A stretch of DNA of 64,000 nt. Source: Leptolyngbya sp. FACHB-261 (lineage in GTDB: Bacteria; Cyanobacteriota; Cyanobacteriia; FACHB-261). The stretch covers positions 62,001 through 126,000 of the forward strand of contig NZ_JACJPL010000018.1 of assembly GCF_014696065.1 (NCBI RefSeq), read 5' to 3'. Positions 37,476 through 50,529 of this stretch are shown here, piece by piece; positions within the stretch are counted from its first letter, which is position 1; every line of letters begins with the position of its first letter. The notes below the pieces were generated by a model. That model did not search any database, was not told the origin of the DNA, and saw only the letters and a program-made list of their open reading frames with translations. A program made the translations under genes and the position numbers.

Positions 37476-39101
37476 TCACTCCAGACTGCTAATTTGGGGA
37501 GCCGTTAATTTGTTAGTAGCGTAAGAGCTGCTGTAAGCTCCTCTTAAAGCAGGGGGTAGCTGTGCCGTTAGAGGGGCTGCTTCACGCAGTTGAGCGACCA
37601 ATTTTTGAGTGGTTGCGTCGTAGACCTGGGTGATCATCTTGGGATAGAAGCCAATGCCAATAATGGGAATCAGCAGGCAGGCAATGATGAATACTTCACG
37701 GGGTTCTGCATCTACCAAGACCTCGTGTTCTACCAATGCCTTGTTCTCAGGCCCGTAGAAGATCTCTCGCAGCATGGCCAGCAGGTAGATCGGCGTCAGA
37801 ATCACACCCACCGCAGCCAGTAGGATGATCACCAACTTGAAGGGGTTACTGTAGGCGTCACTGGTGGCAAAGCCTACAAAGACCATGACCTCGGCAACGA
37901 AGCCACTCATGCCCGGTAATGCTAGCGAAGCCATTGAGCAGGCGGTGAACATCGCGAAGACCTTAGGCATCTTCTTCGCAACACCACCCATCTCACTCAG
38001 GATCAGGGTATGCGTGCGGTCATAGGTAGCGCCCACTAGGAAGAACAGCGACGCCCCGATCAGCCCGTGAGAGATCATTTGCAGCATGGCACCGCTGGTC
38101 CCCAGATCGCTAAACGAGCCCATGCCAATCAGCACGAAGCCCATGTGCGAAATCGAGGAGTAGGCGATCTTTCGCTTCAAATTCCGCTGCGCCCAGGAAG
38201 TTAACGCCGCATAGATGATGTTCACTACCCCCAAAATCACCAGAACCGGAGCGAAATAAACATGAGCTTCTGGCAACATGCCAACGTTCATGCGCAGCAA
38301 GGCATAGCCACCCATCTTCAGCAGAATGCCTGCCAGTAGCATGTGCACTGGCGCCGTGGCTTCACCGTGAGCATCCGGCAGCCAGGTGTGTAGGGGAAAG
38401 ATTGGCAGCTTTACAGCGTAGGCAATCAGAAAACCAGCATAGGCCAGCAACTGGAAGGTCATCGGGTAGTCTTTGCCCGCCAGTGTGGTCATATCAAAGC
38501 TGACGGTATCGCCATAAAAGGCCATAGCCAGAGCAGCGACCAGGATGAACAGCGAGCCGCCTGCGGTGTACAGGATGAACTTGGTTGCTGCGTAGAGGCG
38601 CTTCTTCCCTCCCCAAATTGACAGGAGAAGATACACCGGAATCAGCTCCAGTTCCCACATCAGGAAGAACAGGAGCATATCCTGCACGGCAAAGACGCCA
38701 ATCTGGCCGCCGTACATTGCCAACATCAGAAAGTAGAACAGACGCGGCTTCAACGTAACCGGCCAGGATGCCAGGATCGCCAAGGTGGTGATGAAACCGG
38801 TCAGCAAGATCAACGGCATTGATAGGCCATCAGCGCCCACCGACCACTTCAAGCCCAGTTGAGGCACCCAGGAGTAACTCTCCCACAGTTGCAAACCTGG
38901 CTCTGAGAAGTCGTATTCCGTGTAGAAGGCATAGACCAGCAGGGCAAAGTCGATCAGACCAACCACTAGCGCATACCAGCGAATGGTTCGCCCATCCCCC
39001 TTATCTGGAACTAGAGGAATGAAAAGAGAGGCGACCACAGGCAACAAAATTGATGTGGTCAGCCAGGGAAAGTTTGAAAATTCAGGCAGGTTGAGATCCA
39101 T
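37476..39101 (-). CDS. ndhD: NAD(P)H-quinone oxidoreductase chain 4 (NdhD1-type)
   Basis: A 541-residue proton-pumping antiporter-like subunit of thylakoid NDH-1, which takes electrons from ferredoxin and reduces plastoquinone in respiration and cyclic flow. About 14 membrane helices are visible. Family blocks: [20 protein letters not shown] near residue 86, the conserved Glu in [17 protein letters not shown] near residue 145, [20 protein letters not shown]-like text ([20 protein letters not shown]) near residue 225, and the Lys/His pair in [18 protein letters not shown] near residue 310. The C-terminal extension is polar. Cyanobacterial ndhD1 pairs with ndhF1, and the neighbour is ndhF, so this is probably the NDH-1L form. 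It lies 14 bases after ndhF, clearly in one transcript. Confidence 0.94.
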
Positions 39102-39115
39102 ACAAAACGTTGTTC

Positions 39116-41170
39116 CTAACCGGAAATTCCAGAGGCAATCACTAAACCCAACACCGCCACAAAAATGACTAAGGCATAGAACTGAGCACGGCCATTTTCG
39201 AAGTATTTAAGGGCTTCACCTGTTACCAGAGTCACGAACCCAGCCAGGTTCACAACGCCATCCACAATTTTCTGGTCCACTTCCAAGACTCCGCGCGCCG
39301 TGCGTCGCGAACCCTGAACGAACAGAAAATCGTAAACCTCATCGAAGTACCACTTGTGCTTCGAGAGCTGGTAGAGCGGCTCAATCGATTTGGCAATCTT
39401 GGCCGGGTCGATCTTGCCCTGTAGGTACATCAGAGTTGCCAGGGAGATCCCCAACAGAGAGATGCCTACCGAGCTGCCTGCTAGAACTGCAAACTCACTG
39501 AGCGATTCCCCATGTTCGGCTAGTTCCTCGCCAGGAGCATGAATAAACGCCTCGAAGTAGTTGCCAAAGGGAGTTCCCAGCAAACCGATGGCAATTGAGG
39601 GAACTGCCAGAATCGCCAGGGGCAAGGTCATTGTCCAGGGAGATTCATGAGGTTCACTGGCATGATGACCGTCGTGCGCATCATGCGCATCGTGCTCTAG
39701 CTCTTTGGGATCCATAGCACCCGGTCCAAAGGCAGGCGCCAAGACGCTAGAGTTCTGCAACTTGACATCGTGCACCAGGTTTGGCTCTGTCCCTCTGAAC
39801 GGCCCCTCAAAGGTCATGAAGTACATGCGGAACATGTAGAACGCCGTGATCCCAGCAGTCAGATAAGCAATGCCCCAAAGAACAGGGTTAGCAGCAAAGG
39901 CTGCGCCCAAAACGGCATCCTTAGACCAGAAACCTGCAAATGGTGGGATACCAGAGATCGCCAGCGTACCGATCAAAAAGGTGGTTGCCGTAACCGGCAT
40001 GTATTTGCGGAGGCCACCCATCACGCGCATGTCTTGGGCGACATCTGGATCGTGGCCAACTACCGACTCCATACCATGAATCACAGAGCCAGAGCCCAAA
40101 AACAGCATGGCTTTGAAGTAAGCATGGGTCATCAGGTGGAAGAGGCCGGCACCATAGGCACCTACACCCATCGCCATCACCATGTAACCCAGCTGCGAAA
40201 CCGTGGAGTAAGCCAGTCCTTTCTTGATGTCGTTTTGGGTAATTGCAATGCTGGCGCCTAAAAAGGCAGTGGCTGCTCCCGTCCAAGCGATGACGTCCAT
40301 TGCCCCTGGTACCACTTCAAACACAGGGAACATGCGGGCAATTAGAAACACGCCCGCAGCTACCATCGTGGCCGCGTGGATCAGCGCCGAGATCGGCGTC
40401 GGGCCTGCCATAGCGTCAGGCAACCACACATGTAGAGGGAATTGCGCTGACTTAGCAGCTGGACCCATAAACACCAGAATGGCAAACAGGGTAGCCAGTC
40501 CTAAGCTCAATGAGCCTGACTCAACCGCAGCCCGTAGCCCTTCACCCATCCCCTCAAATTCGAAGCTGCCAGTCGTCCAGTAAAGGCTCAGTAAGCCCAG
40601 CAGCAAACCAAAGTCGCCGACTCGGTTCACCACAAACGCCTTTTGGCAAGCATCCGCTGCTTCTGGACGGTCAAACCAGAAACCGATGAGCAGGTAGGAA
40701 CACATGCCCACCAGTTCCCAGAAGATATAGACCTGAACCAGATTGGGACTAATCACCAGCCCCAGCATCGAAGAACTAAATAGGCTTAAGTAGGCATAAA
40801 AGCGGACATAGCTCGGGTCGTGAGCCATGTAGCCATCGGTGTAAAGCATCACCAGAAAAGCCACCGTGGTCACGATCACCAGCATTAAGCTGCTGAGATG
40901 GTCGATGATGAAACCCATCCGCAGGTGGAAATCTCCAGCCGATGCCCATTCGAATGTCCATTCGTAGGGGGGATGCCCAGAAAACTGGCTGTACAAGATG
41001 GCAAAGGACAGCCCCATGGCTGCCCCGATTGAGCTAATCGCTAACGTTGCGTTGGCTTGTCGCAGGCCATTGGTCACGCGGTTAAACGAGATCAGCCCAA
41101 GCCCAATTACAAAGGCACTCGCCAAGGGCAGGACCGGGACAAGCCAGGCGTACTGGTATATCAATTCCAT
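39116..41170 (-). CDS. ndhF: NAD(P)H-quinone oxidoreductase chain 5 (NdhF1-type)
   Basis: A 684-residue NDH-1 subunit with about 16 membrane helices and the long lateral helix at its C-terminal side. Seen: [20 protein letters not shown] near residue 87, [20 protein letters not shown] near residue 147 with the pump glutamate, the [20 protein letters not shown] block near residue 250 (here continuing [17 protein letters not shown]), and [20 protein letters not shown] near residue 325. A His-rich loop [18 protein letters not shown] near residue 490 sits before the C-terminal helices. The ndhF-ndhD pair shares one direction and a 14-base gap. The NDH-1L role (respiration and cyclic electron flow, rather than CO2 uptake) follows from similarity to F1/D1 types. 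Confidence 0.94.
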
Positions 41171-41491
41171 TGCTCGCGCCTACAAACTTTCACTTGCACA
41201 ATTTAGAAACTAAGCAGAAGGGGTTAGGGAGGAGATAGTAGCTACGCCACAATACCTAGGCAAAGCCCTCATCATTCTAAACTCAGTCTAGTAGTGCTCC
41301 TAGGAACCCTTTCTTCTTTCTTCCGGAAGAATACCTATCTGTACCGGAGACCACATTCATGATGAAAACGACAGCAAATTCATTGCTGTACGCTCATCCT
41401 GGCTGAGTTTGATGGGCACAATCCCCTGGGACTGGACTGAACTCAGGTCATCTAATCTGAACTCAAGCCAGCCAAACTTAGAGATTTGACA
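41171..41491. other. Gap upstream of ndhF
   Basis: About 320 bases between the start of ndhF and the end of the thioredoxin gene, both minus strand, so it must hold the ndhFD promoter and the end of the upstream transcript. I see no gene or strong hairpin. CTGAACTCAGGTCATCTAAT is followed by a second CTGAACTCA about 20 bases on (near 41437 and 41458), a small direct repeat of nine bases. Confidence 0.4.
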
Positions 41492-41839
41492 TCAATAGAT
41501 TTTAATTGGAACTGGCTTGGCTGCCACCAATTCCTCCAACGCAATCCGCAGATCTTCGCGGTCACTAAATCCCGACAGACGATGAACTAGCTTGCCTTCT
41601 GCAAATAGCATCAGCGCTGGAATCGTCTTCAGGCGGTATTCATTAGCCAGCCGGAAATTTTCATCAGCGTTGATACGAACCAGCTTGAGCTGATCCCCCC
41701 ACTCGCTCTCAAATCGAGTCAATAGCGGATTGCTCATCCGACATAGACCACACCAGGGCGCCCAGAAGTAAACAAGGACCGGCAGGTCGGCTGCTAAAAC
41801 TTCCTGTACAAACGTTTCATCGCTGACCGGCAGAAACAT
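41492..41839 (-). CDS. Thioredoxin with CGLC active site
   Basis: A 115-residue single-domain thioredoxin fold protein. The active site reads WAPWCGLCRMSNPLL near residue 30: the usual WCGPC proline is replaced by leucine, which in this fold normally shifts redox potential and partner choice. YRLKTIPALMLFAEGKLVHR near residue 70 holds the cis-proline (TIP). No signal peptide or membrane anchor, so a cytoplasmic reductant, probably served by ferredoxin- or NADPH-thioredoxin reductase. Full length. It is about 45 bases downstream of the NnrU/Z-ISO-type gene, same strand, so co-transcription is possible. Confidence 0.9.
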   Translation of the reverse strand: MFLPVSDETFVQEVLAADLPVLVYFWAPWCGLCRMSNPLLTRFESEWGDQLKLVRINADENFRLANEYRLKTIPALMLFAEGKLVHRLSGFSDREDLRIALEELVAAKPVPIKIY

Positions 41840-41884
41840 ACCGCTCTATGCTAAACCCGCTTTAAATCCGTCTTTGGGATCATG

Positions 41885-42598
41885 CTACCAGTGAACTCCG
41901 GTTGCTGCACGGATTAGTAGCGGATGTAACCAATAAAGTCCTATGACAAAAATGAGAACGCCTAGATAAGCAGGCTTGAGAAACTCCTGCCACTGCAAAA
42001 CTTGGTCTCCTCGCAACACTGCAGCCATCGGTACAACAGAAGTTCTGGCCTTCACTGCCATAAACGCTTCGCCATAACGCAGCTGTAAGCGACGATCCCC
42101 ATGCCAAACCCCAAATAGATGGTGTGCAATCAACCCTACTGAGGTCAGCACCATGAAGGAAGACCCCACCCAGAGTGTATGAGCTAGGCACCAGATAACC
42201 TGTCCGACCATCTGAGGATGGCGGCTCACACGAATGATCCCAGTCTCATATAGGTGGACTTGCGGCTTCTCGATCGCGGCGATCTCCAAAAGATTAAAGG
42301 TCGCCGGATACAGAAACAGAAACGATATTGCTGACAGCGCCAGCACCAGCGCGTGCACACCAGGCACGCCCTGCACCTGCCAAAGTTGCAGGCCATCGTA
42401 GCGATGATTAAAGAAGTAGATCAGCAGCACCAATGCCAGACTTATACTCACTAAGGCAAACAGCACTCGGTATAACCTGGGCCCGGTGTGCTTCTCAACC
42501 CGTAGACGCAGCGCCGCTAGACCACTGTGCACCATCGCAAACGCTAGCAGCAGCCCTGCCATCACCAGGTGAGACCGCAGATCAGGGAAGTCGAGCAT
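41885..42598 (-). CDS. NnrU/15-cis-zeta-carotene isomerase (Z-ISO) family membrane protein
   Basis: A protein of about 237 residues with six or more membrane helices in the NnrU superfamily. The plant member Z-ISO isomerises the 15-cis bond of zeta-carotene using a redox-gated heme b, and a cyanobacterial counterpart has been reported. Family histidines are seen in AMVHSGLAALR near residue 26, IIRVSRHPQMVGQVIWCLAH near residue 125 and VGLIAHHLFGVWHGDRRLQ near residue 160. The size fits the Z-ISO branch, but the denitrification-associated NnrU branch cannot be ruled out by eye. Start at ATG 42598; TTG 42610 would add four residues. If Z-ISO, it acts in carotenoid synthesis in the membrane, notably in the dark. 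Confidence 0.78.
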   Translation of the reverse strand: MLDFPDLRSHLVMAGLLLAFAMVHSGLAALRLRVEKHTGPRLYRVLFALVSISLALVLLIYFFNHRYDGLQLWQVQGVPGVHALVLALSAISFLFLYPATFNLLEIAAIEKPQVHLYETGIIRVSRHPQMVGQVIWCLAHTLWVGSSFMVLTSVGLIAHHLFGVWHGDRRLQLRYGEAFMAVKARTSVVPMAAVLRGDQVLQWQEFLKPAYLGVLIFVIGLYWLHPLLIRAATGVHW

Positions 42599-42652
42599 GA
42601 GAGTAACCAACGCACCGGCGAAAACCAGATCCAGCGTAGAGGATACCTAGGC

Positions 42653-44542
42653 TCAAAAAAGCAGCTCTAGCTCCAGTCGCGAGAGATCCAGGTAATACAG
42701 CCTACCCTGAGTGCCAGCCCAAGTCGCAACTAGCAGATGATGGGGTCCATGAGCAATGACTGCTGTAGGTTGTCCTGCTAGGGTCAGGTTGCCAACAATT
42801 TGTCCTACAGGGTCTAGCAAGGTCAGTGTCTGACGAGCTCCAGCAGCAATGTAACCCCAGGGTGTGCTCTGGAGCAAAGTGGGTAGGTAGCCTAAAAATA
42901 GACGGCGAACCTGAAATGCTTTTAAGTCAATCAGCAACAGAGTTTTGGGCTCTCGGGGACTCGCAGCTAGAAGATGGTACGGAACACGACCGGTCACAGC
43001 TTGAGTGATAGGCATGGGTAGGTCAAACTTCTCCATGCAATTACCCCGTCGGGAAAGCACTTGGATTTGCGACTGTTCCCCACCACAGACTATTGCTAAG
43101 TGGTGCCGATCCAGAACATTCAAGGAGGGCAAGTAGGTTGATTCTGGCAAACTCAACTGGCGAATCAGGCGACCGCTCAGGGGGGAAAGTAAGGTGAGCA
43201 CCTGGCGCGAAGCGACTGCCAACCAGCGTCCATCTGGGTCAAGGGCGCCAACCAGGTCCTGCTGCTTTTCGATCAAAGGACGACAAGCAGCCCATGGCTG
43301 TACTTGATACACGCCTTCCTGGGTGGTGGCATAGCAGCCCTGGGAGCTCAAGTGGAGCGAGCGAACCTCAGCGTGAAGGTCCACCACCGGAATTCGTTCT
43401 AGACTGGATTCAGTTTTTGATGAATCCGGCTGCTCTGTAAGCTGAGAGCAACTGAATGCTGGTTCAAACTCAAATAAAGAAGTTAGAGATCGCCAGCCGA
43501 CCTGAGTTTTAGCAGCCCAGCAGAGCAGCGGTGTATCGCTTGCTGGAGCTATCACTTGCAGGGCAGTCAACGGCAGGCGCAAGGGCTGCTGCTGCCATTG
43601 CTCAGCTCGACTAGACGTTAGGTCCAAAGGGGCCAACAATTGACGCGGCACCAAAGGTACGCCTGTCTCCAATTGAGGTAGGGCAGCTTGTTTAAGCCTG
43701 ACAGTACACTCTCGCAATGCCACCAGCATTTGCTCTGCTGACTTGAAGCGACGAGCTGGTAGCTTTTGCAGAGCCGTGTGCAGAACTTCTCGCAACGGCT
43801 CATCCAAGCTCAGGGGCAGTTCCACTGGCTGGTTGAGATGCGCACTCATCAACTCAGCTGGCATCCCCGAAAAAGGTCGTCGTCCCAGTAGCATTTCGTA
43901 GAGCATAATCCCGACTGCATACAAATCGGAGCAGACGGAAAACTCGCCATAAAAACGCTCAGGAGCCATGTAGGCGGGAGAGCCCGTGTTGCCTTGACTG
44001 CTATCTTCAACCGTTCTGCTCCGGCCGACTCCCGACCGAGTTGCTGCCTCTAGTTCTTGTCCTAAACGAGCAATACCAAAATCCGAGATTCGAGCGGTCC
44101 AGCTAGTCGGACTCAGATTGAGCAGAATATTCTCAGGCTTAATATCACAGTGAATAATCCCCTGTTGGTGGGCCTGTTTCAAACCAACCAACACCTCACA
44201 GGTCAAGTTCAGAACAACGGGCAAAGAGAGCCGAACATCTTCTTGCACCAACGCCCGCAGTGTACCGCCTTCGCAGTAGTCCATCACTAGATAGCGGCCT
44301 GTTCGGGTGTGCTCCAGCGCCTCGCAAGCCACGATATTGGGATGGCGGAGTGACAACAGGAAGCGTAGTTCCCGCAAGAACTTATTGGTTGGAAAGCGGA
44401 TTTGATCCAATTCCTTCAGCGCCACCAGACGTCCGCTCACACGATGCCGCGCTACATACACCCGACCAAATTGGCCCCGCCCAACCAAGCAGAGGATGCG
44501 GTAGCGAGAGGCCGGAAGCTGCATGTCAGAACGCTGGGCCAC
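42653..44542 (-). CDS. Serine/threonine protein kinase with C-terminal beta-propeller-like region (SpkG-like position)
   Basis: A 629-residue protein. The kinase domain is at about residues 12 to 275: glycine loop LVGRGQFGRVYVARH, catalytic lysine in LVALKELDQIRF, catalytic loop GIIHCDIKPENILLN near residue 133, DFG in ARISDFGIARLG and APE in AYMAPERFYGEFS. The residue before the catalytic Asp is Cys (HCD) instead of Arg (HRD), marking a non-RD kinase. The rest, about 340 to 629, shows repeated strands with Trp/Leu spacing (WLAVASRQVLTLLSP, LLIDLKAFQVRRLFLGY) like a WD/YVTN-type propeller. No clear membrane helix. Start is GTG at 44542; ATG 44524 is possible. It is the last gene of the PAP-like cluster, as spkG (slr0152) is in Synechocystis. 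Confidence 0.87.
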   Translation of the reverse strand: MAQRSDMQLPASRYRILCLVGRGQFGRVYVARHRVSGRLVALKELDQIRFPTNKFLRELRFLLSLRHPNIVACEALEHTRTGRYLVMDYCEGGTLRALVQEDVRLSLPVVLNLTCEVLVGLKQAHQQGIIHCDIKPENILLNLSPTSWTARISDFGIARLGQELEAATRSGVGRSRTVEDSSQGNTGSPAYMAPERFYGEFSVCSDLYAVGIMLYEMLLGRRPFSGMPAELMSAHLNQPVELPLSLDEPLREVLHTALQKLPARRFKSAEQMLVALRECTVRLKQAALPQLETGVPLVPRQLLAPLDLTSSRAEQWQQQPLRLPLTALQVIAPASDTPLLCWAAKTQVGWRSLTSLFEFEPAFSCSQLTEQPDSSKTESSLERIPVVDLHAEVRSLHLSSQGCYATTQEGVYQVQPWAACRPLIEKQQDLVGALDPDGRWLAVASRQVLTLLSPLSGRLIRQLSLPESTYLPSLNVLDRHHLAIVCGGEQSQIQVLSRRGNCMEKFDLPMPITQAVTGRVPYHLLAASPREPKTLLLIDLKAFQVRRLFLGYLPTLLQSTPWGYIAAGARQTLTLLDPVGQIVGNLTLAGQPTAVIAHGPHHLLVATWAGTQGRLYYLDLSRLELELLF

Positions 44543-44625
44543 GGGAAATTAGCAGAGAGCGCTAGGGTAGATGATGAAGCATCAGAGGAGCTCAGCGTCC
44601 AATTCCAGCCTTGAAGATTGAGAAG

Positions 44626-45282
44626 TTATGGACAAAGCCGCGCCATGATACTAGCGTGGTCTAGCCCTTCTCCCAAGAACGCTTCTACTGGAGCTAGCCT
44701 TTCTTTGAGGCCCACTACAAAGTGGTTAGTGGGAGCGCCGATCGACTCACAACTCGTCTGTACACAGTGCAAGCTGCGACCTGTGAGCTGTGAGAAGAAG
44801 GAACTCAAAATACCTGCTTCCAGCGCACAGGACATTCGGGTACTGTTCTGCATCTGCTCAGCGAAGGGCGAGCCCGTAGTCGTCAGAACCAAGAAACCTC
44901 GCTGCTCGTAGCTGCGTTCGAAGTCCAGCTTGCCCCAGCCATGGGCCACCCAGCATTCCCGCAGACATTGCAAGAACAGAGCCATCTCCATTTCGTTGAG
45001 GCTCACGCCATAGTAGTCACTCACTTCCTCAGAAAAACGAGCGAAGAAGTTTTTGCCCCACCAGCGCCCACAATTAAAGAGCACTAGACGAGAAGCCTGC
45101 CCTGTTTCCCGCTCCAAGCCCACGTAAATCGAGCGGACCAGAGTTTCAGGTAGGGCTAGCAGCCGGTCTCCTCGGCGATTTTCGAGAATGCCCAGCTCCA
45201 AATCGCCTCGAATATAGCTAGCAGGAGCGAAATAGTTGCCCGGAGCCCGGTTGTCCTTTAGTAAATCAGCGACGGAAATCAT
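44626..45282 (-). CDS. V4R-domain protein (Slr0144-like)
   Basis: A 218-residue protein with a C-terminal V4R (4-vinyl reductase) domain, a small-molecule-binding fold. ILENRRGDRLLALPETLVRS is near residue 32; VLFNCGRWWGKNFFARFSEE near residue 68 is the conserved helix. TSCESIGAPTNHFVVGLKER near residue 180 is the Cys-containing V4R core. In Synechocystis the V4R proteins Slr0144 and Slr0147 of the PAP operon are linked to photosystem II assembly or stability. The start at ATG 45282 has GAGG upstream and lies 11 bases after the stop of the preceding gene. Ligand (bilin, chlorophyll precursor or other) is unknown. Confidence 0.82.
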   Translation of the reverse strand: MISVADLLKDNRAPGNYFAPASYIRGDLELGILENRRGDRLLALPETLVRSIYVGLERETGQASRLVLFNCGRWWGKNFFARFSEEVSDYYGVSLNEMEMALFLQCLRECWVAHGWGKLDFERSYEQRGFLVLTTTGSPFAEQMQNSTRMSCALEAGILSSFFSQLTGRSLHCVQTSCESIGAPTNHFVVGLKERLAPVEAFLGEGLDHASIMARLCP

Positions 45283-45293
45283 AGTAGAAAACC

Positions 45294-45761
45294 TCAACAG
45301 GGTTGGGCAACAACAGCAGCTTGGGCAATCGCAATATAGGGACGGAGCAGCTCCCATTGGGGAACTGAGAGTTCCTGTTTCAAACCCTGGTTGAGCAAAC
45401 GGTAAAGAGCTTCATTGATAGCTTGCAACTCAAAAGCTCGATTAATCTCTTCCAACCAGTGCAGCAGACGTTCCCTGAGAAAGGTTTCATCATTGAGCAG
45501 CATGGCCATCGCACAATACCGCAATGACACCAGTAAGTTTTTAATCCCTCGCTCCAAATCTTCAACCTCGGCGCTAGGCAGGCTTACCTGAATCTGATCC
45601 GCAACCTGCTGCACCATATCCAGCTCACGATCGCGCAAACGCTTGTAGGCTTCAATTCGCTCAGGCAAAGAGCCGACATAGCCCGCGAGGGACTTTAGTT
45701 CCTCAAGCTTGAGGTACCGCCCCTCAGCTTGATCAAAAATCACTTCCAGTTCTGAGTTCAT
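45294..45761 (-). CDS. Phycobiliprotein-fold protein without chromophore cysteine
   Basis: A 155-residue all-helical protein in the phycobiliprotein (globin-like) superfamily. It has the N-terminal helix pair GRYLKLEELKSLAGYVGSLP and the core helix DLERGIKNLLVSLRYCAMAM near residue 68. Then comes LNDETFLRERLLHWLEEINR, which matches the helix pattern of allophycocyanin-like proteins. The site aligned to the bilin-binding cysteine is Gly (ERGIKN), so covalent bilin attachment at the usual place is unlikely. It forms a tandem pair with the next upstream gene, 14 bases away. In Synechocystis, Slr0145/Slr0146 of the PAP operon are relatives. A scaffold or bilin-free partner in PSII assembly is inference. 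Confidence 0.8.
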   Translation of the reverse strand: MNSELEVIFDQAEGRYLKLEELKSLAGYVGSLPERIEAYKRLRDRELDMVQQVADQIQVSLPSAEVEDLERGIKNLLVSLRYCAMAMLLNDETFLRERLLHWLEEINRAFELQAINEALYRLLNQGLKQELSVPQWELLRPYIAIAQAAVVAQPC

Positions 45762-45775
45762 ACTTCTAACGACCT

Positions 45776-46261
45776 TTAGCTAGGGCTACCCAGCATCTCA
45801 TGGGCAATCGATATGTATTGATTAGCTAGACGAGCTGAGTCCGCTGGCAGGGTTTCAGTAATCACTTCTTGCAGCAAACCATAGGCTAGGTTGCAGGTAT
45901 CTTGCTTCTCCAAGGCCCGCATGATCGTCTGGAGCCAGAACAACAGATTCTCTCTTAGATACTCTTCGTCATTGCGCAGCAAAGCCACAGCGCTATAACG
46001 TAACACCTCGGTCATGTCCTGGATGCACTTCTCCCCGGCACCCGCACCGAAGCGAGCATCAAGTTTAGGATCCTGCCGCAAGTAGCGAGCCATGACGCGC
46101 TCGACAATCAGAGACTCCTGCTCTTGGAGCAACTGATGAGTTTGCATCCGCAAGGCAAAAGAGGACAGATAAGCTTCTAGAGACACTAACTCATCGGCAT
46201 TGAGATAGCGACCATCTGCCCCTTGAATCGTGGTCTTAAATTCCTTAGTAAATACAGACAT
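45776..46261 (-). CDS. Phycobiliprotein-fold protein retaining the bilin-site cysteine
   Basis: A 161-residue phycobiliprotein-like protein. QGADGRYLNADELVSLEAYL near residue 13 is the N-terminal helix pair. GEKCIQDMTEVLRYSAVALL near residue 78 keeps the Lys-Cys-x-x-Asp arrangement that in phycocyanin and allophycocyanin holds the bilin-linking Cys84 and the Asp that contacts its pyrrole nitrogens. NDEEYLRENLLFWLQTIMRA follows. It is therefore the member of the tandem pair that could carry a bilin; its paralogue lost the cysteine. The CpcS lyase at 26.6 kb is a candidate enzyme for loading. Same operon direction as its neighbours, 14 and 8 bases apart. Confidence 0.82.
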   Translation of the reverse strand: MSVFTKEFKTTIQGADGRYLNADELVSLEAYLSSFALRMQTHQLLQEQESLIVERVMARYLRQDPKLDARFGAGAGEKCIQDMTEVLRYSAVALLRNDEEYLRENLLFWLQTIMRALEKQDTCNLAYGLLQEVITETLPADSARLANQYISIAHEMLGSPS

Positions 46262-46269
46262 AAGTGCTC

Positions 46270-46620
46270 CTAAAAGCCGTCAGAGAAATCATCAAGTGTG
46301 AAGTCTTCTGCCGACCGGGCCACCGGCAGGTTGGGGGTAGCAGGAATCACCAGAGGCAGTTGAGCAGAAGGTCCTCCCTGCCAGGGAATTGCCTCAAAAA
46401 ACTGACCGACTTTTAGGCGCAGGCTGAGAGGAAGGCCAGAGGTATTGGCCTCTTGAACCAATACCTGCACGGCTGGAGGTCGATCCTCCCAATTAACGCC
46501 CTGCAGGAATACGCCAACTTTCTGGCTTAACCAGGCTGTACTGTTCTGAGGTTTAGAAGAGTCAGAGGCCATGGAGACTTGACGGTGAAACCCGTTTTGA
46601 GACAAGGTTGCTGTGCTCAT
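46270..46620 (-). CDS. Small protein with two KVGxF...W repeats, PAP-like cluster
   Basis: A 116-residue protein without a known domain. A disordered N-terminus leads into LSQKVGVFLQGVNWEDRPPA near residue 31 and a second similar unit RLKVGQFFEAIPWQGGPSA near residue 68: both read K-V-G-x-F-x5-W-x3-P. The tail is proline-rich and ends in an acidic-aromatic stretch (DFTLDDFSDGF). The start ATG at 46620 overlaps the stop of the V4R gene (ATGA), so translation is coupled. Tryptophan-centred repeats suggest a docking site for other cluster proteins. Whether it equals one of the small slr0145/slr0149-type genes could not be decided. Confidence 0.7.
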   Translation of the reverse strand: MSTATLSQNGFHRQVSMASDSSKPQNSTAWLSQKVGVFLQGVNWEDRPPAVQVLVQEANTSGLPLSLRLKVGQFFEAIPWQGGPSAQLPLVIPATPNLPVARSAEDFTLDDFSDGF

Positions 46621-47315
46621 GAGAGCCGCTCTCCATCTCTGAGACGCTTCTCGACGTCACGGGCTGTCGCTCCCTCGTTTTGCCAAAAAGAAACTGCGTC
46701 AATCCGGTCCTGACGTCCAAGTAGAAACTTGCAATAGGTTTCACCCATTGAATAGCACTGAATCTCAATGCAGCTCAGTTGCTTACGAACTAAAGCAGTG
46801 AAGAAGCCAGAGAACAGACCCGCATAGAGATGGCATACAGGTTTGCCAACGTCCCCCAATGTTCGGGCTACGGCTGAGTCGAATAGGCTAATAAACATGA
46901 AGCCTTGCTTACGGTCGCTGACATCAACTTCCCAACGCCCCCAACCTTGGGATGTGAACGGCCACCACCAGGTTTCTAATAAAAACAATAGGTTTGTTTG
47001 CCGCATTGGTCGGTTGAATTCTCGTTCGAACCAAGATTCAAAAAACTCAGCGTCACTACGGCCCCACTCGCAGCCCATCGTGTACATGATGGCGGCAGAG
47101 GCATCTCCTACTTCTTCTTCAAGGCCCTCTAACAAACCGATAATAAAATCTTCACTGGTCAGTAAATTACGGCTACCGTTCCAGTCGGTGATTCGACCAG
47201 CTTCAGGGCTGAACTGGAAGAAGTCTTTGAAACTGTAATGGTTGTGTTTTTTGGGCTTGATGCCGTTAGGACGGTTGGTGGAGCCGCCGTCTAGGCTAGT
47301 GATAATTGCAGTCAC
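46617..47315 (-). CDS. V4R-domain protein (Slr0147-like)
   Basis: A 232-residue protein with a V4R domain. After a basic N-terminal tail, TSEDFIIGLLEGLEEEVGDA near residue 52 begins the fold; AAIMYTMGCEWGRSDAEFFE near residue 73 matches the conserved helix with GxxWG. LYAGLFSGFFTALVRKQLSC near residue 160 then CYSMGETYCKFLLGRQDRID near residue 185 form the cysteine-containing V4R core. The start is GTG at 47315. In Synechocystis the similar Slr0147 is part of the photosystem II assembly (PAP) set. It overlaps the next gene by four bases. V4R domains bind small hydrophobic ligands; the ligand is unknown here. Confidence 0.83.
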   Translation of the reverse strand: MTAIITSLDGGSTNRPNGIKPKKHNHYSFKDFFQFSPEAGRITDWNGSRNLLTSEDFIIGLLEGLEEEVGDASAAIMYTMGCEWGRSDAEFFESWFEREFNRPMRQTNLLFLLETWWWPFTSQGWGRWEVDVSDRKQGFMFISLFDSAVARTLGDVGKPVCHLYAGLFSGFFTALVRKQLSCIEIQCYSMGETYCKFLLGRQDRIDAVSFWQNEGATARDVEKRLRDGERLS

Positions 47316-47582
47316 GGGTTTCCTCTTGTATTACTCACTGGATACTTCGCCAACCGTTAGGTGCAGCAGAGGCAGATGACTGAGAAGCAAAGGCGGGGGC
47401 CAAGGTCGAAGGCTGAGCGAGCATCTGAATCGGTAGACGACTGCTGACTCCAGTTGCTGAGCTTCAATTTCCTGGATTTAATTTGCCACAGCAATCTATT
47501 TTCTTAACTATCCCTATAGGAACGCAAATCTAAAGGCTCCTTAAAAAATCTTAGACATTGGCTTTGGTCAACTAGCCGCTAG

Positions 47583-48065
47583 TTAAGCCTGATGGGTATG
47601 CTGCCAGTGCTCACCAACTCGAAAGTCGGTATTTGCGAGCTGGCTCATCATCGAACGTGTAATGAGCTTGCCAGCTTCCACTAGCACCTGACCTGTAATC
47701 GGGTGCAGTAGATCCTGGTCTGTCCGCCGACCAATCAGGGCTTCGATATCCTGTAAGGAGTTAACATACATGCCTGGCGGCAACTCCAGGATTACACCAT
47801 TGCCAACCACCCGAGATTGGCAGGCCAGTCGAGAATTTTGTTTACAACTAGTAATGACCTCCAGAGTGCGCTGCTCACGACGAGACATTGGTGAGAGGGC
47901 GTCCATACCATTTCTGACGTAAACGTGGCAGGTTGCACAGAGGCCACGCCCCCCACATTCTTTAAGAACATCAAGGTCTTCAGAAATCAGGACCGAGAGT
48001 AGATTGCCATTCGTTGCAACTTCAGTTTCTTGAGCAATGGGCTCAAGCCTCACCAATTTAGACAT
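47583..48065 (-). CDS. 2Fe-2S ferredoxin with C-terminal extension (Slr0148-like)
   Basis: A 160-residue protein. Residues 1 to about 105 are a 2Fe-2S ferredoxin domain with ligand cysteines in VLKECGGRGLCATCHVYVRN (C-x5-C-x2-C, near residues 37, 43 and 46) and the fourth in SRLACQSRVVG near residue 82. The C-x5-C-x2-C spacing is that of adrenodoxin-like ferredoxins, unlike plant-type PetF (C-x4-C-x2-C). A tail of about 50 residues (HPITGQVLVEAGKLITRSMM) follows, with no cysteine. Slr0148 in the Synechocystis PAP operon is a similar ferredoxin. Role: electron transfer or redox sensing during photosystem II assembly, by context. Confidence 0.87.
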   Translation of the reverse strand: MSKLVRLEPIAQETEVATNGNLLSVLISEDLDVLKECGGRGLCATCHVYVRNGMDALSPMSRREQRTLEVITSCKQNSRLACQSRVVGNGVILELPPGMYVNSLQDIEALIGRRTDQDLLHPITGQVLVEAGKLITRSMMSQLANTDFRVGEHWQHTHQA

Positions 48066-48167
48066 GGACGGGTTCCTCTAATATGACGAAGGGTCAAACA
48101 AGAAAGCCTTAGGTTCCAATCTCGAATATTCGTATATAAGCCAGCGTTCCCACTTTGAACCGGGCGA

Positions 48168-49148
48168 TCAATCCCGCTCTTGCCCCAATTTGTCGAGTAG
48201 GATCTGCTTCTGCTGCTCGTTTAGTCCGTCTTGCTCTAGCATCTGGGGAAAGTCGCGTAACACTTGGGCACAACGGCGAATGAAGGATTTCACCCATTGC
48301 CGCACCTGTTGGTGATGAGCAGGCAAAAATCGAGAGGCGTCTCCAGTAAAGGTCATACGGCCTGTGCGGTCGATGTTAAATTGCGTCAGCCAGTCTGAGT
48401 CCGGACGGCTGCTCTTCCAGTAGTTCACGATCACCGCTGTGCCCAAATAACGAGTGGTGAATTTGCTCAGATGGTTTAGAGCGGCAACAACATCCTCCAA
48501 GCTTACGGGCGGTTGATTAGCAGCAGGCACAGTTTTCTCAGGTTCCGGCACTGCCACTGGCGCAGACCAGGTTTGAGGAACGGTTCGGAGCCGGGATGGC
48601 GCTGGCCTAGCGGCTGGATTGGATGTTGGCTTGGGGGATGCCGTTGGGGCTGGCATGGCTATTGAGCTGCCATTTCGCTCCTCTAGCAGAATGGGCAGTG
48701 GCTCATCTAGAGCAGGTTCCGAAACCACTGGGGCTGAGCCCACAACGGGAACTTGATAGCTACGATTGGATTGGACTAAGCTGCCCGCCAAAAGTTTGAA
48801 AGTAGCAATGGCATTTTGGATATCTTCCTGAAAAGTTTTGCGTAGCAGACTAACTACCTGAAGGTAGCTGGGACGAGTCAGGCTATTGTCAGCTAAGACC
48901 AGGAGTACAATGCCGCGTGAGAGCTTGTAGATAAAAACTTGGTGGTTGGCGAATTGAAACTCAAAGGACTCAAATCCTTCTGGAGTTGTCTCCACCACTT
49001 GAAGAATGCCCTGAGCCAGCGCTTCCCGTTGGCGTGAGTTGAGAGCTTGATCCAAACCGTAGAAATAGGGGCGAGCATGGCCATCCATGAGGGCAACCCC
49101 TGCGATTCCTGGTAAATTCAGAAAATCCTGGACAACCTCCCGTTTCAT
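48168..49148 (-). CDS. Roadblock/LC7-like protein with C-terminal helical-beta domain
   Basis: A 326-residue soluble protein, unassigned beyond fold. Residues 1 to about 120 resemble a roadblock/LC7 fold: FLNLPGIAGVALMDGHARPY, QVFIYKLSRGIVLLVLADNS, and the long helix SYLQVVSLLRKTFQEDIQNA. A Pro/Ala-rich linker runs from about 135 to 210. The C-terminal part (about 215 to 326) starts with VSLEDVVAALNHLSKFTTRY and includes WLTQFNIDRTGRMTFTGDAS. It is the first gene of the minus-strand run that leads into the PAP-like cluster, with 102 bases before the ferredoxin gene. Roadblock domains often regulate small GTPases or act as dimer scaffolds; no such partner is seen nearby. Confidence 0.7.
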   Translation of the reverse strand: MKREVVQDFLNLPGIAGVALMDGHARPYFYGLDQALNSRQREALAQGILQVVETTPEGFESFEFQFANHQVFIYKLSRGIVLLVLADNSLTRPSYLQVVSLLRKTFQEDIQNAIATFKLLAGSLVQSNRSYQVPVVGSAPVVSEPALDEPLPILLEERNGSSIAMPAPTASPKPTSNPAARPAPSRLRTVPQTWSAPVAVPEPEKTVPAANQPPVSLEDVVAALNHLSKFTTRYLGTAVIVNYWKSSRPDSDWLTQFNIDRTGRMTFTGDASRFLPAHHQQVRQWVKSFIRRCAQVLRDFPQMLEQDGLNEQQKQILLDKLGQERD

Positions 49149-49494
49149 CTCAAGCTATCTCACAACTAGCTGACAGCAATAAATTCTTAGGCCAAGGGGT
49201 CTTAAGCTGATAGGTTTTTGATAGGAGAGTCTCACCGCAGGGTGTGGATTCAACTACTCACCCAGTGCAAAGCCATCGAAACCCGCGCTAACCATAGACC
49301 AGCCGCACAGCAGGACCCTGTCAGGAGGCAGAATTGATACAAAAGTTAGCGACCTTTCTGTCATTTTTCTGGCCTCCTAAGAACCTTCGGTTACTCTGTG
49401 GTGCCCCCCTTGTGGCCTTTGCTGCAAACCCTTATCAAACGGGTGCTGACGTTTTCGACCGACTACCTGCTATCTTTCTGCCAGGTTGAGCTGT
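49149..49494. other. Divergent promoter region between the roadblock-like gene and rbcR
   Basis: About 345 bases that must carry promoters for both divergent genes. CCTGTCAGGAGGCAG near 49317 and a T/C-rich stretch near 49360 stand out, but no -35/-10 pair or LysR-type T-N11-A palindrome could be set with confidence. No open frame of note. Confidence 0.4.
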
Positions 49495-50529
49495 ATGACC
49501 GACCTTCCTTTTACTTTGGACCAGCTTCGCATTCTCAAGGCCATTGCCAGTGAGGGAAGCTTTAAGCGTGCGGCAGACAGTCTGTATGTCTCCCAACCCG
49601 CCGTGAGCCTCCAGGTGCAGAACCTTGAGCGACAGTTGGACGTGCCGCTGTTCGACCGGGGTGGGCGAAGGGCACAACTGACGGAGGCTGGACATCTGCT
49701 GCTGAGCTACGGTGACCGCATTTTGAGCCTTTGTCAGGAGACTTGCAGAGCGATTGAGGATCTGCAGAACCTGCAAGGCGGCACACTGATCGTAGGGGCT
49801 AGTCAGACTACGGGCACCTATTTGATGCCTCGGCTGATTGGCCAATTTCGACAGAAGTATCCGGAAGTAGGTGTCCAACTCCACGTTCATTCTACCCGGA
49901 GGACCTCCTGGAGCGTAGCTAACGGCCAAGTGGACTTGGCGATCATTGGTGGCGAGGTTCCTCCTGAACTACACGACTCTTTAGAGATTGTTCCCTATGC
50001 GGAAGATGAGTTTGCGCTAATTGTGCCAACCTCTTACACCTTTACTCAAGGTGAGGTTATTTCCCGGGAGGACCTGTACCGGCTGCAGTTTATTGTGCTG
50101 GACTCTCAGTCGACGATTCGCAAAGTCATTGACCAAATCCTTACCCGTAATGGCATTGATACGCGCCGTCTCAGAGTAGAGATGGAACTCAATTCGATCG
50201 AGGCAATTAAGAACGCGGTCCAGTCGGGTCTGGGCGCTGCTTTTGTCTCTGTGACGGCAATTGAAAAAGAACTGCAGCTCGGAGCCCTTCAACAGATTCA
50301 CCTCGATGACATCGTTATCCGGCGAACGCTCTCACTGATCACTAACCCCAATCGCTACCGTTCTAAGGCGGCAGAAGTATTTTCGCGAGAGATCTTGCCT
50401 CAGTTTGCGGGCTTAATCAGTCATCTGGAGACGGTGGCTCCATCCCTGAACGGCAGTCGGGACCATAACAGTAACCTTGGGACTATACCGAATGGTCAAT
50501 CTGGCAATTTGGAGGTTCAACCTACTTAG
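49495..50529 (+). CDS. rbcR: LysR-type regulator RbcR (Ycf30)
   Basis: A 344-residue LysR-type transcription factor. The winged-helix N-terminus reads [20 protein letters not shown] then [20 protein letters not shown], matching cyanobacterial RbcR/Ycf30 almost without change, followed by [20 protein letters not shown]. The effector domain includes [20 protein letters not shown] and [20 protein letters not shown]. RbcR controls the rbcLXS operon and other Calvin-cycle/carbon genes in response to metabolites such as RuBP, 2-phosphoglycolate or NADPH. Starting at ATG 49495 (MTDLPF) fits the family; TTG 49486 is less likely. The C-terminal 35 residues are variable. rbc genes themselves are not in the window. 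Confidence 0.93.

Follow-up and report, generated by a model that had tools for sequence, protein, structure and literature searches.

In a 64,000-nucleotide stretch of the Leptolyngbya sp. FACHB-261 genome (assembly GCF_014696065.1, contig NZ_JACJPL010000018.1, positions 62,001-126,000; hereafter the window), we analyzed a run of eight genes that resembles the slr0144-slr0152 (Pap) operon of Synechocystis. The run extends from window position 49148 to 42653, and all eight open frames lie on the minus strand, at the places given for them by an earlier reading of this DNA from its letters and frames (the sequence-only reading). In gene order, with lengths and positions in amino acids (aa) and Pfam E values where given, they are as follows:

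48168..49148, minus strand: RB, roadblock fold at aa 1-123, disordered linker, conserved all-but-helical C-terminal domain at aa 217-317
47583..48065, minus strand: FD, adrenodoxin/ISC-type [2Fe-2S] protein with a conserved C-terminal extension; counterpart of Slr0148 (Fd5); Fer2, 1e-8
46617..47315, minus strand: V4Ra, V4R domain, 2.4e-20; counterpart of Slr0144
46270..46620, minus strand: SML, small protein with two copies of a V--FF----W-G type motif; slr0145 position
45776..46261, minus strand: BB1, divergent phycobiliprotein-fold protein of BBAG type, chromophore-site motif CIQD; Phycobilisome, 2e-18
45294..45761, minus strand: BB2, slr0146-type phycobiliprotein-fold protein, chromophore site without Cys; Phycobilisome, 2e-12
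44626..45282, minus strand: V4Rb, V4R domain, 5e-14; counterpart of Slr0147
42653..44542, minus strand: STK, Ser/Thr kinase with a C-terminal extension; counterpart of SpkG; Pkinase, 1e-45

Pfam supports every family in the run except the roadblock, which falls below the cut-off. The likely start of V4Rb is 45282 rather than the 45357 of the frame listing; the alignment to Slr0147-position genes begins at residue 26 of the longer frame. The SML start overlaps the V4Ra stop by 4 bp, the FD-V4Ra gap is 267 bp, and the other gaps are short or overlapping, a spacing that would fit a single transcript. Consensus promoter and terminator scans of the run gave nothing above shuffled sequences. A chance grouping is excluded, since these genes are found side by side again in the other cyanobacterial loci that we compared (129 loci) and V4Ra and V4Rb are the only two V4R proteins in the genome.

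The assignment of the run to the slr0144-slr0152 type was confirmed by similarity searches. We call Synechocystis-type those genomes with the nine-gene order V4R, small, BB, V4R, Fd, BB, petF, TPR, kinase seen in L113 and L116; this order, found in L113-L116 (one genus), is the published Synechocystis order. Searches of five Synechocystis-type genomes with the window kinase each gave just one match at E≤1e-20, which was the cluster kinase where checked, and in the reverse search the window kinase scored 357 bits against 87 for the next kinase, so that it passed the reciprocal best-hit check. A one-way search with the Synechocystis-type cluster FD hit the window FD with 61% identity and 210 bits, the next protein scoring 28. 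V4Ra, SML, BB2 and V4Rb pair one-to-one with the first, second, third and fourth genes of the Synechocystis-type cluster: V4Ra is 63% identical to the first gene and 26% to the other V4R, V4Rb is 48-51% identical to Slr0147-position genes, and SML reaches 30-34% across its repeats. The sequence-only reading was also right that petF and an slr0151-like TPR gene are absent: the run contains no petF (slr0150) frame and no slr0151-type protein, and a genome-wide search for the latter gave only TPR-repeat-level matches, with no full-length protein.

The window run therefore shares with the Pap operon its Slr0144 and Slr0147 kinds of V4R protein, an slr0145-type small protein, the slr0146-type BB2, an Fd5-type FD and a SpkG-type kinase, as well as the order V4Ra-SML-BB2-V4Rb, which faces the kinase in the same way. 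It differs from that operon in having FD upstream rather than downstream of the V4R core, in being headed by RB, a pentapeptide version of which lies elsewhere in Synechocystis-type genomes, and in lacking petF, the TPR protein and an slr0149-type subunit within the cluster, its second phycobiliprotein-fold gene falling outside the slr0149 clade. Clusters of this kind have been described before. In cyanobacteria, Rockwell et al. 2023 (PMC10151467) reported an Fe-S protein gene grouped with two V4R genes and BBAG genes, traced these groups back to pre-PcyA clusters, and remarked that slr0150-slr0152 are often missing; a V4R phylogeny has also been published (PMC13326532). In the window run, too, an Fe-S protein, a V4R pair and BBAG genes are neighbors, with no heme oxygenase (HO) or bilin reductase (FDBR), whereas RB, SML and the kinase do not belong to the core that the paper names in its main text. 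The earlier proposal that the run could point to a minimal module is not new, such a module having been argued for by Rockwell et al. 2023 (PMC10151467).

Comparison of gene order across relatives showed that the window run is ordinary for its kind. The order RB, FD, BB1, V4Ra, SML, BB2, V4Rb, STK occurs in 17 loci of Leptolyngbya-type genomes, and the window locus, of the slr0144-slr0149 plus spkG type, has the layout common in these cyanobacteria. The V4Ra-SML-BB2-V4Rb core is nearly invariant, its three adjacencies being present in 118, 116 and 116 of the 129 loci; in the window, BB1 is inserted before BB2 within this order. The kinase follows V4Rb in 71 of the 129 loci, and the polarity of core and kinase is nearly always the same. 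What moves is the FD block, which lies upstream with RB in Leptolyngbya types and downstream as FD-BB1 in Synechocystis types, and which is inverted between V4Rb and the kinase in genomes of Oscillatoria and family f11. When a roadblock-type RB lies away from the V4R core it still adjoins FD in four of five cases (G011, G170, G215 and G286, not G177), and for this reason we regard the cluster as three parts: a V4R core that stays fixed, a block of RB and FD with or without BB1, and a kinase. The claims that the run is rearranged and that its internal order is reversed relative to the kinase did not survive this comparison: V4Ra-SML-BB2-V4Rb points to the kinase in both the window and Synechocystis. 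A roadblock-like gene does head the run as claimed, but this is standard in Leptolyngbya-type genomes and no oddity of the window.

A cluster in another class of the phylum (L152) has the order FD-V4Ra-SML-BB-V4Rb-heme oxygenase. Its genome encodes only two phycobilisome-type proteins, both BBAG-like, and for that reason probably has no phycobilisome; the cluster is deep-branching and its host probably non-photosynthetic. Since FD also comes first there, the FD-first order is probably old and the Synechocystis order derived, as judged from few deep lineages. As a separate observation, in five loci of family f11 (L143, L153, L155, L156 and L162) V4Rb and the inverted BB1-FD pair are separated by the gene for a pentapeptide-repeat protein of 386-388 aa; the 386-aa matches were rejected as RB domains, as they matched through pentapeptides only and have no RB C-terminal domain.

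The roadblock-like label of the first gene was upheld by its predicted fold. In an AlphaFold model of RB (mean predicted local distance difference test score [pLDDT] of 77), residues 1-123 form a roadblock fold that matches solved Roadblock/LC7 and MglB structures (Foldseek against the PDB, best E of 1e-4, target template modeling [TM] score of ~0.5-0.68); the sequence itself stays below the Pfam Robl_LC7 cut-off (E=0.075, 13.2 bits against 23). RB shares this fold with Roadblock/LC7 proteins such as MglB, Ragulator subunits and archaeal roadblocks, but differs from them in its sub-threshold sequence and in its fusion to a separate helical domain, and no MglA-type small GTPase gene was noted in the window run. 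The last ~100 residues of RB form a conserved domain (alignment A1), modeled with a pLDDT of 92 and a predicted TM score of 0.84. Neither sequence nor fold searches matched this domain to anything in Pfam, NCBIfam or the PDB; no candidate fold relative in the PDB fell below E=2, and weak H-NOX matches were not counted.

The part fused to this domain changes with lineage. It is a roadblock in Leptolyngbya types and consists of pentapeptide repeats in families f13, f21 and f6, among them the Synechocystis-type genomes, whose RB gene is unlinked to the cluster. A receiver-like N terminus occurs in L138, L139, L149 and L151 (Pfam E of 7e-4 to 9e-4, below cut-off, for the two scanned), and in other carriers the N-terminal part is unassigned. 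One genome (G193) carries three V4R clusters of two kinds (L137, L138 and L139), the second kind comprising FD, a receiver-type RB, FD, V4Ra, an unassigned protein of 130-215 aa, a Cys-bearing BB and V4Rb.

The RB C-terminal domain is found almost exclusively in genomes with V4R genes. All 36 carriers among 292 genomes of the phylum have V4R, as do 227 of the 228 carriers among 390 genomes of the class, in which 141 genomes have neither; the sole carrier without V4R is a 1230-contig draft (G321). The corresponding Fisher values, 2e-33 and 6e-82, ignore shared ancestry and come from samples that overlap in part. The domain lies ≤5 kb from a V4R gene in 60 of the 90 genomes listed. Literature searches on roadblock together with V4R found nothing, and the RB C-terminal domain family, its exchangeable N terminus, the persistence of roadblock-type RB beside FD and the odd BB1 are new as far as the literature was searched. 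We tentatively propose, at slightly less than even odds, that thylakoid-bearing cyanobacteria have in this domain an unrecognized, near-obligate partner of the V4R/BBAG/Fd5 complex: an adaptor that would plug different inputs into one photosystem-biogenesis machine by way of an N-terminal module exchanged between lineages.

The two phycobiliprotein-fold proteins that had been claimed are indeed both Phycobilisome matches, and BB2 falls inside the slr0146 clade (support 100/95). BB1, however, lies outside the slr0149 clade in our trees (support 100/99.7). Approximately unbiased (AU) tests rejected its placement within the slr0146 clade (p=0.014) and its origin as a tandem duplicate of BB2 (p=0.0003), but not a position as sister of the whole slr0149 clade (p=0.40). 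No close ortholog of BB1 above 46% identity was found in the 390 class genomes. Relatives carry an slr0149-type gene in the FD-V4Ra interval; in the window, this 267-bp gap holds no such gene, and no remnant of one was found there. The slr0149-type proteins of this genome are instead encoded by two genes unlinked to the cluster (L191 and L192) and branch within the Leptolyngbya forms; in both, W replaces the chromophore Cys, as in most Leptolyngbya types. BB1 has kept this Cys. Its CXQD pattern has been reported for photoglobins, whereas the cyanobacterial BBAGs with Cys are mostly CXRD (PMC10151467). The simplest reading of these sequences, drawn from one genome, is that a divergent Cys-bearing BBAG may have taken over the slr0149-type role in the cluster.

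Phycobiliprotein-fold proteins with a CKYD/CQYD-type motif, encoded away from the cluster, group in a clade of their own that spans several families (L190 in this genome, and L257, L259, L260, L263, L269, L271, L275, L277 and L278); BB1 was rejected as a member, the clade not containing it. Five further proteins of this genome, 345-444 aa long, show a weak Phycobilisome profile match over ~110-130 residues (L193, L194, L195 and L196).

Direct reading of FD gave the Cys spacing C37-x5-C43-x2-C46, the C-x5-C-x2-C pattern previously ascribed to it, and its nearest solved relatives are of the putidaredoxin/adrenodoxin types. At the positions equivalent to T18 and T72, which we take to be the phosphorylation sites of Fd5, both residues of the window FD are Thr. 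FD also has a conserved C-terminal extension of ~60 aa (IGRR...HP-TG-VLVE-GKLITRS; window 47583-47770), common to the L152 cluster. Outside the run, the kinase is followed by an NnrU-type gene, thioredoxin, ndhF and ndhD (window 37476-42610), conserved in many relatives, and a divergent LysR-type regulator gene (window 49486-50529) heads the RB gene in a conserved neighborhood; loci L005, L006, L018, L019, L027, L044, L046 and L121 share flanking neighborhoods.

We computed gene identity, gene order, co-occurrence, the domain swap and the BB1 phylogeny for the window cluster and its relatives; complex formation, thylakoid location, the photosystem II (PSII) phenotype and the loss of Fd5 phosphorylation are carried over by analogy from Synechocystis. 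There, a pull-down with Slr0149 fused to green fluorescent protein validated interactions among Slr0144-Slr0149 on thylakoids (PMC9880817), the operon has been linked to the assembly and repair of PSII (PMC9145668, PMC4853703), and Fd5 is no longer phosphorylated when SpkG is missing (PMC11863333). Bilin binding has been shown for BBAG-1 and BBAG-3 (PMC10151467). We consider it most likely, with a probability of roughly 0.6, that the products of the locus form a thylakoid-associated complex whose task is to handle tetrapyrroles and electrons while photosystems are assembled or repaired, with RB as a regulatory or scaffold partner and BB1 replacing the slr0149-type subunit. The ligand handling, the role of RB and the BB1 replacement are what we infer. 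The V4R pair and the BBAG proteins would bind small hydrophobic or bilin ligands, the adrenodoxin-type FD would supply or sense electrons, and the SpkG-type kinase would phosphorylate FD. The conserved C-terminal domain of RB may dock on this module while its exchangeable N-terminal part (roadblock, receiver or pentapeptide) brings an input. In this genome both copies of the slr0149-type subunit have moved out of the cluster and lost the Cys, and its task has probably passed to the Cys-bearing BB1.

Several points weigh against this interpretation. Rockwell et al. (PMC10151467) regarded BBAG function as still open and pointed out that slr0150-slr0152, of which two are missing from the window run, may account for the PSII function. 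The first report linked the operon to photosystem I (PMC4853703), and SpkG activity itself has not been directly demonstrated (PMC11863333). The experimental support comes from organisms other than this one. V4R genes occur without the RB domain in 21 of 248 V4R genomes, and RB is therefore not strictly required; the co-occurrence statistics, in turn, take no account of shared ancestry.

The main competing explanation, which we judge unlikely, is a unit for bilin or tetrapyrrole sensing and signaling that affects the photosystems only indirectly. Ligand-binding V4R and BBAG proteins, a redox FD, a kinase output and a roadblock or receiver input all fit it, with kinase, roadblock and receiver-like modules (the last at E ~1e-3, below cut-off) in or beside the cluster, as does the occurrence of the L152 relative in a genome probably without a phycobilisome. 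However, Synechocystis operon mutants have a PSII phenotype, the proteins are on thylakoids, and the kinase is the only output gene conserved with the cluster. Less probable still is that BB1 is a fast-evolving slr0149 ortholog that moved beside BB2. The best BLAST match of BB1 in the Synechocystis-type cluster is the slr0149-position protein (35-37%), and the sister placement fits, yet the slr0149 clade excludes BB1 and already holds L191 and L192 of the same genome, and the rejected origin of BB1 from BB2 also speaks against such a move.

It is also improbable, more so than either of these, that the link between the RB domain and V4R reflects only the shared ancestry of the sampled genomes. 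Both are concentrated in the same families and the statistics carry no phylogenetic correction; nevertheless, all but one of the carriers in the two samples have V4R, the RB domain is kept even when unlinked and fused to other N-terminal modules, and joint loss is seen in at least two families (G289 has both and G185, of the same genus, neither; likewise G058 and G083, of one genus). Least probable of all is that a Synechocystis-like operon underwent rearrangement here and was reduced to a minimal form, with a block reversed relative to the kinase. The missing petF and TPR genes and the position of FD on the opposite side of the V4R core would agree with it, but the core runs in the same direction toward the kinase in both, RB-FD-(BB1)-V4Ra-SML-BB2-V4Rb-STK is the common order among relatives, and the FD-first L152 cluster beside heme oxygenase makes the Synechocystis order look derived.

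With the function of the V4R/BBAG/Fd5 cluster still open, the RB family, found almost only where V4R genes occur and including the unlinked locus of Synechocystis-type genomes, gives a single new gene to delete or tag in order to probe the role of the complex. The division of the cluster into a constant V4R core, an RB-FD block and a kinase tells which parts to reconstitute together, and because the Cys-bearing phycobiliprotein-fold subunit has been exchanged, one can test whether a bound bilin is needed.

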